A stretch of DNA of 64,000 nt. Source: Crocinitomicaceae bacterium (GTDB taxonomy: Bacteria; Bacteroidota; Bacteroidia; Flavobacteriales_D; Crocinitomicaceae). Each line of letters begins with the position of its first letter. The stretch's first letter is position 1. Both the position numbers and the translations under genes were made by a program. The stretch covers positions 1 to 64,000 of the forward strand of contig JAQXBM010000008.1 in NCBI GenBank assembly GCA_029252405.1. Reading direction: 5' to 3'. Below the pieces are notes generated by a model, which saw only the letters and a list, made by a program, of their open reading frames with translations, was not told where the DNA came from and searched no databases. Positions 60,179 to 64,000 of the stretch are shown here, piece by piece.

Positions 60179-61261
60179 TTATTGCTTCACGAAAGTTGAT
60201 TTAGCGAATGTCCCGTCGGTATTCTTCACCAAAAGAGTATACGATCCAGATTCAAAATCTTCCAGTGAAATCGTTTGAGAGGAAATGTCAACATCACCTG
60301 ATTGAACCAACTTCCCTTCTGCGCTAATTATGATATACGAGCTTCCTATTTGGAAACCATCCAGTTTGAGTTCATTGGTAGCTGGGTTTGGATAAACGTT
60401 CACTTCTGAAATCAATTCTGAAGTACCAGCCAATAAGGGATCATAAACATCTCTGTATTCGATGTCAGTTACGGTTTCCGTACCATTAAAGTCTGATGTT
60501 GTAATTCTCAAAATCGGCTCCAATTCTCCTGTTGTCCACCACTCATAAATATTACTCGCTGGAATCGGCAATTCAATCCATGTACCGAATTGACCAATGT
60601 AGAGTGAATCTTGCTCCTGAATGGCGTGTCGTATTCTCAAAGCGTCAAAAGATCCAAGAGGTGTTGTAATCTGACCCCATCCATCAATGTTGCTGCTTCG
60701 CTGGCGGTATTGAATCCAAATGGCATCAAAAATTGGGTTTAAATCAAGATTTGTGTATCCTCTTGATGAGTATACATCACCAAAATTTGCTGGGAATTGA
60801 TAACGCGTTTCGATTGTATCTGACTTAAAAGGCACTTCGTTTCCGTCCACAACAATTGAGAAGCCAATTGAAGTAATCGAGTCGGCTGTATTCTTAGAAA
60901 CAGCGTTCACTTCAGAAATGTTTACGGGCAGAAACGATCCAAATTGGTCGAGTGGTAAATCATTAGAAGCCGTATAATTTGTCGCTTGATACGCTGGAGG
61001 TGCAAATCCTCCGAATAAAAACTGCATTAACACTGACGTCCCTCCAAGATCAAAATAGTTCTTCAAAACTTGACTTTCCGCCACTAAACCAGAAAAATCC
61101 CACGTATAGTTTGCTCCTGTCGAGAGAAAATCTATTGTTGGATCAGTAGTTGAGCTCATGCGAACTGTGTCTCCACCGTCAGCAAAATCAGCATTACTCA
61201 ATGTGATTTGTGCAGAAGCAAAACCAGAAATCAATAGAAAGGCAACAAGAAGAGTGCGCAT
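60179..61261 (-). CDS. Secreted protein with T9SS sorting domain
   Basis: 360 residues with signal peptide (LVAFLLISGFASAQITL). The body is beta-rich with no named domain I recognise; it contains TGANYTWDFSGL, YQFPANFGDVYSSRGY and YEWWTTGELEPILRI, a pattern common in Bacteroidota secreted proteins. The C-terminus is a T9SS sorting domain (VYPNPATNELKL, LEDFESGSYTLLV). Monocistronic. Confidence 0.85.
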   Translation of the reverse strand: MRTLLVAFLLISGFASAQITLSNADFADGGDTVRMSSTTDPTIDFLSTGANYTWDFSGLVAESQVLKNYFDLGGTSVLMQFLFGGFAPPAYQATNYTASNDLPLDQFGSFLPVNISEVNAVSKNTADSITSIGFSIVVDGNEVPFKSDTIETRYQFPANFGDVYSSRGYTNLDLNPIFDAIWIQYRQRSSNIDGWGQITTPLGSFDALRIRHAIQEQDSLYIGQFGTWIELPIPASNIYEWWTTGELEPILRITTSDFNGTETVTDIEYRDVYDPLLAGTSELISEVNVYPNPATNELKLDGFQIGSSYIIISAEGKLVQSGDVDISSQTISLEDFESGSYTLLVKNTDGTFAKSTFVKQ

Positions 61262-61319: not shown

Positions 61320-62408
61320 TTACTCAGTAGGGAATGCGATCCCGAACGTTGTCTCGAAATCTAGATCGAGCGTCCCATTTACGTTTTGAACGTCCTGAAC
61401 AGTAGCAACAACATGTGCTCTTACTTTGTAAACAGAATTTCCATTCACATCTTTTCCGTAGTACGACACGTCCTCGAAAGAAACTGTGTTCGCATTATTG
61501 TTGATGATATCCGAAGCGTATGTGATTCCATTTTCCTCCAACTTCACTCTGATGTTGAAATCTCTGTAAAGCAAAGCAAGTGTGCTTGTTTCGAAGAATG
61601 TAATGTCATCGATGAATTTACCACTGAGATCACCGTCAACAATCATCGACTTTGTTCTCTTAGCTCCATTTTCAAAGCTAATCTGAGAGCGCAAAATGTG
61701 ATTCCCTCCAGGGAGTGAATCATACGCAAACTCCGGATTTTCAGAAATAAGAACATCGTTTAAGAACCACTCCACTTTTTCAATGGCTACTTGTGGATCT
61801 ACCACCCATGCAGTCAGCGTTCCGTTTTGGTTCAAGAAGTGCTTGATCGTGCAATTCGCATGACGCTCATACCCTAGGATCATTTCCGAACAAAGCTCCT
61901 CAGACGACGAATCTGTAAAGTAGATCGTTGCACATACTTGGTACTTACCTGGCTCCATGATCGTCAAATCGTTGGTAACTGGTGCACCACCATCAACTGT
62001 CCAAACTACATAATCAATTACATCTACATTTGGAAAAGCATCTTTTGACAATACCGCTACTGGTGCTGTAGATTCTTTCGAAAATACGTGATCTGAAGGC
62101 AAGGAATTGATTGATACGTGACCTGGAATATCAATCATACCATCATAGATTCCTATTTCAACAGAGAGATCCCCATCGCTCAAGTTTCCAGTAAATAATT
62201 GAACTCCATTTTCTTCTTGAATTGACGTGAACATGTAGGCATTATCATCACCTGCAACCAAGTTGAATGCACTGCCGTCAATTGTTCCTTCAGCCGTGAA
62301 AACAGGATCTGTCGAATTCGGCTGATCAATTGTATGCTTTTTACAAGAAGTGATTAATAATCCTCCAAACACTACAATAAACGCTATGTACGCTCTAGCT
62401 CCTCTCAT
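61320..62408 (-). CDS. Lipoprotein with Ig/PKD-like segments, cotranscribed with the sigma/anti-sigma pair
   Basis: 362 residues with lipobox (FGGLLITSCKKHTID, Cys about 22). The middle region has PKD-like strands (DYVVWTVDGGAPV, GKYQVCATIYFTDSS, EKVEWFLNDVLISENPEF). It starts 2 bp after the beta-barrel anti-sigma-like gene, so it is in the same operon. It may be an outer-membrane partner or a regulated product. No family name. Confidence 0.8.
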   Translation of the reverse strand: MRGARAYIAFIVVFGGLLITSCKKHTIDQPNSTDPVFTAEGTIDGSAFNLVAGDDNAYMFTSIQEENGVQLFTGNLSDGDLSVEIGIYDGMIDIPGHVSINSLPSDHVFSKESTAPVAVLSKDAFPNVDVIDYVVWTVDGGAPVTNDLTIMEPGKYQVCATIYFTDSSSEELCSEMILGYERHANCTIKHFLNQNGTLTAWVVDPQVAIEKVEWFLNDVLISENPEFAYDSLPGGNHILRSQISFENGAKRTKSMIVDGDLSGKFIDDITFFETSTLALLYRDFNIRVKLEENGITYASDIINNNANTVSFEDVSYYGKDVNGNSVYKVRAHVVATVQDVQNVNGTLDLDFETTFGIAFPTE

Positions 62409-62410
62409 CT

Positions 62411-63793
62411 CTATTTTCTTAATCTTATTGTTCTTCTCAGGTAGATTTGCCCATCTATTGGCAATTGGTTGTTGTAACCATCGATCAAATCTTCATTCAC
62501 TGACTGCATCAATTGCACGCCAACGTTTGCTCCAATCGTCCAGCTATTGAAACGGTATGAGTAACCTACTGTCGGTTTCAACCCAAAACGCATTAGCGCG
62601 CTGATACTTTGACCGCCTATTTCTTCTTCAATCAATCCATTGATTTGTTCTCTTCTCAAGAATTGTTCGTCTTCAAATACGTGTTTTTGTGTTTGAGCTC
62701 CAACAATAAATGATGGACGTACACCAATATTTACATTGTGTCTTTCAAAGTTATATCCAAGAGTGATTGGCATTTCTATTGAGTAGATTTTCTGAACGTC
62801 GTATTGGTTCGTTCCTTCATTCGATCCGAATCCGTATACTTTTCCTTTTCGTGTTAAGTATAAATCGTCGTGGAAAGATGCTTTGAAATTAACTCCTGTA
62901 TTCAGGTTAAAGCTTCCAAGGTAAGTCTCAACCCCAAGACCTCCACCGATAGATTTCGATACAATTTCAGATGGTGTTATCAACGATTGAGAGATTCCAG
63001 CATTCATTTCAAAATACAATGCTGCTTTCGGACTAACTAGCCCCAAACCAATTGGCATTGCATTTGGCGCCAATTTTTGATTCAAATTCTGATCCAATTC
63101 GTTCGCTCCATTCAAATCAAGTGAAGCTGTAATTGGTGCACTTTGAAGTGCAGACTCTTTTTGATCGAAAGTTTTAGCATTGCTTCGAGTATCAACTACA
63201 TCCTCTGTAGACGAATCTTGTTGCCCTACTGTTTGAGTAATGTTGGTATTATTCGAACCTCCATTTCTCACATTGCGCGTCGCGAAGTTATACATTGAAT
63301 TTGGTCCAACTGCAGGTTGAACTTTCGTATCACCAGTATTCGTTGAACTTGAATTCCCTGAATTATTCTTGTTAGGCGCAGCTGCAGAATTTTCATTCCC
63401 ATTTGAATTCGCACTTTCGTTGTTTGAAAGTTCATTATTCAAATCATTTGATGCCGCGTTAGTAGTTGATTCATTTTGATCTCCGTTCGAAACTGTCGTT
63501 TCATTTGAAGTATTAGCAGTATTAGTATTTTCGTTAGCAGTAGTCAACTCAACATTTGCAAGTTGATCGTTCGTATTATTAAAGGAAGTATCGTTGGCGT
63601 TGTTCACAAAGTATCCTGTTGTCAATACCGCGATAAACACCAAAGCCGTTCCCATCCAAAGGAAATCTTTCCCTTTACCATTTACAGGTAGTGCGCCCTC
63701 AACCTCCGCAAAGTACGCATCATCGTACTTGAAAGACTGGGCTTCCGCACCATCTTTAAATAGGTTATCTATTTCTTCATCCGTCCAGCTCAT
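62411..63793 (-). CDS. Anti-sigma-like N-terminus, one TM helix, long linker and C-terminal outer-membrane beta-barrel
   Basis: 460 residues from ATG 63793, which overlaps the sigma-factor stop as ATGA. Residues 1-45 form an acidic cytosolic segment (MSWTDEEIDNLFKDGAE) like short anti-sigma domains. One TM helix follows at about 50-65 (WMGTALVFIAVLTTGYFV). Residues about 66-250 are an Asn/Ser/Thr-rich linker. Residues about 265-460 are an OMP_b-brl-type barrel (ALYFEMNAGISQSL, IEMPITLGYNF, VNIGVRPSFIVG). No cleavable signal peptide. The layout suggests one chain spanning both membranes, like the dual-membrane-spanning anti-sigma factors reported from Bacteroides. The longer start at 63871 is less likely. 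Confidence 0.82.
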   Translation of the reverse strand: MSWTDEEIDNLFKDGAEAQSFKYDDAYFAEVEGALPVNGKGKDFLWMGTALVFIAVLTTGYFVNNANDTSFNNTNDQLANVELTTANENTNTANTSNETTVSNGDQNESTTNAASNDLNNELSNNESANSNGNENSAAAPNKNNSGNSSSTNTGDTKVQPAVGPNSMYNFATRNVRNGGSNNTNITQTVGQQDSSTEDVVDTRSNAKTFDQKESALQSAPITASLDLNGANELDQNLNQKLAPNAMPIGLGLVSPKAALYFEMNAGISQSLITPSEIVSKSIGGGLGVETYLGSFNLNTGVNFKASFHDDLYLTRKGKVYGFGSNEGTNQYDVQKIYSIEMPITLGYNFERHNVNIGVRPSFIVGAQTQKHVFEDEQFLRREQINGLIEEEIGGQSISALMRFGLKPTVGYSYRFNSWTIGANVGVQLMQSVNEDLIDGYNNQLPIDGQIYLRRTIRLRK

Positions 63794-64000
63794 ATCACCA
63801 TTCTCTGATTCCGATTTTCTAATCGGTCTAATTTTTCTCTTAATATTTTTCGTGCTGTTGACAAGTGCCATTTAGAAGTTCCTTCTGACATGTCCAGCTT
63901 TTCACCAATCTCTCTGTGCGAGTACCCTTCAATCACGTATAAATTGAATACATGCCCTGAAACTTTGGGTAATTCTTGCACAAGCATCATGATGTTCTCA
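63790..64000 (-). CDS. ECF-type RNA polymerase sigma factor (N-terminus outside the window)
   Basis: Only the last 69 or so codons are inside the window. They form the sigma-70 region 4 helix-turn-helix (LPKVSGHVFNLYVIEGYSHR, EIGEKLDMSEGTSKWHLSTA) followed by a charged tail. The stop TGA overlaps the ATG of the next gene, an anti-sigma-like transmembrane protein, which is the usual arrangement for ECF sigma/anti-sigma pairs. Confidence 0.9.
   Translation of the reverse strand, partial: ENIMMLVQELPKVSGHVFNLYVIEGYSHREIGEKLDMSEGTSKWHLSTARKILREKLDRLENRNQRMVI

Follow-up and report, generated by a model that had tools for sequence, protein, structure and literature searches.

This study has linked an ECF sigma factor gene to a neighbouring protein through which the outer membrane could address it directly. 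In the window, a stretch of 64,000 nucleotides of DNA from a Crocinitomicaceae bacterium, the gene following the sigma factor (hereafter dma) very probably encodes a trans-envelope anti-sigma factor: sequence and structure prediction arrange a cytosolic motif, a single inner-membrane helix, a disordered tether and an outer-membrane barrel along one chain, which would retain sigma at the inner membrane until triggered from the outer one. The feature is real, well conserved and of an already known kind, and a signalling design familiar from gut Bacteroides is now seen in a family of the Flavobacteriales. The natural alignment of 78 members allows motif, tether and barrel to be distinguished, and the small three-gene unit to which dma belongs is amenable to genetics.

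Table 1. Position of dma, its predicted parts and the adjoining genes in the window
Feature	Position	Strand	Basis
Dma-like anti-sigma gene (460 aa, candidate dual-membrane-spanning)	62411..63793	-	frame, hydropathy, AlphaFold2
ATGA stop/start overlap	63790..63793	-	same offset in 64/78 loci
ECF sigma C-terminus, last 69 codons	63790..64000	-	TIGR02937, Sigma70_r2 and r4_2 matches on full gene
Residues 1-43, single-copy motif presumed to bind sigma in the cytosol (anti-sigma), with two predicted helices	63665..63793	-	AlphaFold2, profile match
Residues 43-66, lone helix predicted to cross the inner membrane, N-in	63596..63667	-	hydropathy, AlphaFold2
Residues 67-255, disordered Asn/Thr/Ser-rich periplasmic tether	63029..63595	-	pLDDT <50 for 62-251
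Residues 256-457, predicted outer-membrane beta-barrel, OmpA/OmpX/NspA-like	62423..63028	-	AlphaFold2, Foldseek, profile match
Third gene, 362-aa lipoprotein, 2 nt past dma stop	61320..62408	-	conserved position, lipobox pattern
T9SS type-A sorted protein, neighbour	60179..61261	-	Por_Secre_tail E 3.4e-8

The window edge truncates the sigma gene (Table 1); the same contig supplies the remainder, with the start at window-equivalent position 64359. The complete protein of 189 residues matches TIGR02937 (E 7.6e-26), the only one of the 25 NCBIfam families listed for it to exceed the cut-off, and the Pfam models Sigma70_r2 and r4_2 match the full gene; 14 aligned rows share 65-98% identity with the window's sigma factor. 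The TGA of the sigma gene (63790-63792) and the ATG of dma (63791-63793), both on the minus strand, share bases as ATGA. A mechanical list of open reading frames places the dma start 26 codons earlier (486 residues), but the 460-residue form is preferred because the relatives begin at the overlapping ATG. Wherever the junction is not ATGA, dma starts between -84 and +19 nt from the sigma stop. The 78 members comprise 26 loci from one reading and 52 from another; at the 26, proximity to a sigma gene is partly by construction, because four genus loci with no sigma gene in view were dropped. Upstream of the pair, a possible promoter or leader element approximately 18-44 nt 5' of the sigma ATG (L009:4378-4405, window-equivalent 64377-64404) is kept among 22 compared sequences. 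The pattern taken from it, scanned over the genome, gave one site at three or fewer mismatches and no regulon.

The initial annotation had described dma as an anti-sigma-like start, a single helix, a low-complexity linker and a C-terminal barrel, with a start codon overlapping the sigma stop. The overlap holds, and hydropathy and AlphaFold2 agree with the description of the chain. With the window's protein and 22 relatives as input (23 sequences), AlphaFold2 predicts cytosolic helices at residues 5-18 and 25-33 with moderate confidence (block pLDDT 50-66), a helix spanning residues 43-66 and a region of pLDDT below 50 over residues 62-251. The sole hydrophobic peak on the Kyte-Doolittle scale begins at residue 45 (1.82), and residues 65-250 of the tether are 22% Asn, 12% Thr and 11% Ser. 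The full-chain prediction, which the initial annotation had proposed as a check, places strands between residues 256 and 457 at a block pLDDT of 77-96; from the strand list and the Foldseek matches, we read the predicted barrel as having eight membrane strands. Foldseek ranked OmpA first (1bxw, E 8.8e-7, target TM-score 0.52) and NspA second (1p4t, 0.65), with OmpX at rank 8 (1qj9, 0.52) and Ail at rank 10 (3qrc, 0.52). Larger barrels (Tsx, OmpG) rank between the small ones at target TM-scores of 0.20-0.30, and the fits are modest, the small-barrel matches having an rmsd of about 9 A. For a second member, a relative carrying four motif copies, the prediction gives four helical hairpins, a membrane helix and a similar barrel.

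The same chain could be viewed as an ordinary outer-membrane protein, its helix a cleaved signal peptide and the sigma gene adjacent by chance, and the profile libraries give it no name that would speak against this. No Pfam or NCBIfam model exceeds its cut-off on the window's dma protein; the genome's 15 matches to PF13568 (OMP_b-brl_2) exclude the window's dma gene, which gives none above the gathering score, and Pfam barrel models at E <=0.01 are matched by one of 26 relatives. Matches to Neur_chan_memb and RCC1_2 lie below the cut-off and were taken as chance. The initial annotation had itself named a cleaved signal peptide as evidence against a dual-membrane chain, and on this point the 78 members argue for an intact helix: it begins anywhere from residue 43 to residue 171, and is followed by AXA in six members and by a lipobox in none. 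Lys and Arg are commoner before the helix than after it in 71 of the 78, and this charge bias, the rarity of AXA and the complete lack of lipoboxes fit an uncleaved N-in anchor. The tether that would follow the anchor measures 94-241 residues (median 152.5; 78 members). Since the gene also starts close to the sigma stop throughout the 78 members, 26 of them partly by construction, we find the signal-peptide reading scarcely credible.

The barrel was present in 29 of the 34 searched genomes of the genus, in 30 of 60 relatives and in 79 of 150 genomes of the family, as well as in 37 of 150 from the order, where the five cases outside the family were weak (E 1.2e-5 to 5.6e-4). A search of genome contigs gave 23 loci, all metagenome-assembled and labelled Flavobacteriales, Fluviicola or Crocinitomicaceae (18), Bacteroidetes or Bacteroidota (three), Chitinophaga (one) or only 'bacterium' (one); these named loci overlap the genus genome set, and the two sets are not independent. 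Because both the barrel and the ATGA junction are conserved, an origin of the feature by chance is excluded.

FecR-type anti-sigma factors and TonB-dependent receptors pass an outer-membrane signal to an ECF sigma factor by means of two separate proteins. The present system shares the direction of signalling but would place it in one chain, and no FecR domain is listed at E <=1 for the window's dma protein. Dma proteins, by contrast, are described in PMC13088901 as found solely among Bacteroidota and as consisting of an anti-sigma domain, a helix, a long disordered tether and a barrel, with an ECF21 sigma factor adjacent. A helix, tether and barrel (all predicted), an adjacent ECF sigma gene and a Bacteroidota host are likewise found here and, by analogy with this published layout of Dma1-3, the window's protein is probably a member of the Dma kind. 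Dma1/Das1 and Dma2/Das2 of B. thetaiotaomicron (Dma2 being BT_1558) have the same succession of anti-sigma domain, one helix, disordered tether and barrel beside an ECF sigma factor. The same source assigns dma2 to a three-gene operon (PMC13088901). In comparison with Dma1 and Dma2, the third gene here encodes a lipoprotein of approximately 360 residues, some relatives carry motif arrays and there is no known link to vesicles. Dma3 of B. thetaiotaomicron, of the same family, has the sigma part built into its N-terminal end (PMC13088901), whereas sigma is a separate, overlapping gene here. The sigma-then-anti-sigma layout recurs in M0N98_03760/03761 of Phocaeicola vulgatus, from another bacterial order. 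There, PMC9308784 describes an anti-sigma factor of large size whose chain is predicted to cross the periplasm and to carry a barrel in the outer membrane.

The initial annotation had likened the pair to the anti-sigma factors of B. thetaiotaomicron that span both membranes, and that likeness is supported by the sequence, the predicted fold, the coupling of the genes and their conservation. It had also seen novelty, if the two are homologous, in the occurrence of the layout in Flavobacteriales and in a very different linker. The linker does not serve as a distinguishing trait, a disordered tether being part of the Dma definition. The novelty is thus smaller than was supposed, because Dma is described from Bacteroidota alone with the same domain order, long tether included. 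A literature search combining the Dma family name with Flavobacteriales found no paper; the 2024 Dma1 paper, which is cited in PMC12045153, lay outside the scope of that search. PMC8999054 and PMC12611786 had nothing to add.

The lipoprotein gene comes next after dma in all 22 named relatives, with a gap of -4 to 11 nt, and its product carries a lipobox pattern in 21 of them; the frame found at L079 is 112 residues long. Its profile was seen at 16 of 16 loci in a set that includes duplicates (L168-L183); among 40 additional loci of the family (L184-L223), it was seen at 25 and not at the other 15. One genome of the same genus with no barrel match, G023, lacks the sigma, dma and lipoprotein genes at the locus, where only 191 bp separate SixA from the T9SS gene. 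The G015 locus lacks the T9SS gene as well as the trio; in both genomes, absence was read at the locus only. With the block missing from G023 and its neighbours kept, sigma, dma and lipoprotein look like the genetic unit. The T9SS-sorted protein, the sole full-length copy found in the genome, is encoded downstream in every one of the 22 named relatives and had been considered as a core part; its retention in G023 without the trio led us to downgrade it to a neighbour, probably outside the core unit.

On the other side, a rhomboid gene (PF01694) stands two genes upstream in 20 of the 22 named relatives, a position that would suit a protease cleaving the membrane helix to free the sigma factor. 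However, a homologue is contained in all 22 genomes for which the search of the genus and relatives gave no barrel match, one of them (G014) showing the sigma gene. Rhomboid is seen next to SixA at five of these 22 loci, four of which have no sigma gene in view, and longer stretches in G023, G015 and G035 bear this out. The gene is also kept at the G023 and G015 loci, where the trio is missing. Release by this enzyme was consequently dropped as highly unlikely, and the adjacency looks like plain synteny.

In the mechanism that we propose, the N-terminal helices would keep sigma at the inner membrane while the system is at rest, and the same polypeptide would continue through that membrane and a disordered tether into a small outer-membrane barrel. 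The likely trigger would be a change at the barrel, caused by a partner such as the lipoprotein, by a ligand or by failed assembly of the barrel itself; this may weaken the hold on sigma or lead to cleavage of the chain, and sigma would be set free to act on its target genes. The invariant residues Y320, S324, P445, D447 and G448 lie near the outer hairpins as read from the predicted model, and these positions, together with the co-inherited lipoprotein, lead us to favour a partner or ligand. Strands hold further invariant positions (G357, P407, G410, Y411 and G421), so conservation extends beyond the loops.

Failed assembly deserves separate consideration. Small OmpA/OmpX-type barrels have no wide pore, and a barrel of this type might serve to report on outer-membrane protein insertion, an uninserted chain being unfolded and degraded so that sigma is released. 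For the related Phocaeicola pair, an inducer and a regulon are reported, with cell-envelope stress as the suspected inducer (PMC9308784), which would agree with such a role. A specific partner is nevertheless suggested by the residues near the outer hairpins, although others lie in strands, and by the inheritance of the lipoprotein with dma; we regard a barrel that reports on insertion as a serious but less probable alternative and retain a partner or ligand as the preferred trigger.

By pattern count, 64 of the 78 members, the window's own protein among them, have a single cytosolic motif, and the other 14 have two to five. Two copies are present in L044, three in L047, L058 and L061, and four in L050, L051, L057 and L064. 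Six members from other genera have five, one of which may have matched by chance. On the barrel tree, the single and multiple states need four changes, at least three of them forced by well-supported branches; gain and loss are indistinguishable on this tree, in which a number of branches are long, that of the repeat carrier L221 included. We tentatively suggest, as something short of an even chance, that the presumed sigma-binding domain acts as an adjustable array, that one outer-membrane receptor could hold several sigma factors and that the number of copies would determine how large the response is or at what threshold it starts. Of the whole system, the arrays most deserve to be followed; they would make anti-sigma stoichiometry directly testable. 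No paper turned up in a literature phrase search for anti-sigma domains in tandem or in duplicate. In anti-sigma candidates of other Bacteroidota families (L107, L114, L118, L120 and L122), inspection by eye also showed W-containing motifs repeated ahead of the membrane helix, four of them in L122.

Profile comparisons were made with anti-sigma candidates from other Bacteroidota families, which had been picked for their helix and long chain. The cytosolic regions of the 64 single-copy members aligned by hhalign to those of 16 selected candidates with a probability of 97.05 and a score of 49.1, the best of 20 shuffled controls scoring 12.4. The barrel aligned to that of ten selected dual-membrane candidates (alignment A7) with a probability of 98.2 and an E-value of 5.6e-14, in a comparison run without a shuffled control. 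A full-chain profile comparison recovered the barrel only, the motif match having come from the separate comparison. Of ten such candidates scanned, seven match a Pfam OMP_b-brl model at E <=0.01 and two exceed its cut-off; among the ten A7 rows, eight were scanned and seven of these matched. On the strength of the motif and barrel matches to other families, the layout extends beyond Crocinitomicaceae, also into genomes labelled only as belonging to the same phylum. An attempt to reach the Bacteroides Dma proteins by sigma searches in 20 genomes of other families was abandoned: beside weak matches, the genes that followed were of other kinds, several having cysteine-rich starts by eye.

Some further proteins, mostly encoded beside ECF sigma genes, also came to notice. 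A 620-residue protein adjoining one such gene (L093:1623-3485; G000 contig C86) has an anti-sigma-like start, one helix and a linker, and ends in a barrel that matches PorP/SprF from type IX secretion (E 6.8e-19). Its first 110 residues have matches in 38 of 60 relatives; at loci of this type the sigma stop is overlapped at the same offset in 11 of 11 read, and PorP_SprF is found at E <=0.001 in five of six proteins scanned. Two others, L092:657-2180 and L025:162-1451, follow ECF sigma genes in the same genome; each opens with a short cytosolic segment and a single helix, from which a linker leads to a C-terminus resembling a barrel. The barrels were judged by eye, with no Pfam match above the cut-off. 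In L017:600-1454, an anti-sigma candidate with a membrane helix, the C-terminal part gives a hit to CHU_C, a type IX secretion signal (E 2.2e-13). Two more genes placed after ECF sigma genes combine a membrane helix with other domains, namely FGE-sulfatase in L019:1701-3110 (E 9.4e-26) and YfbK_C with von Willebrand in L094:4841-7006 (E 1.6e-65).
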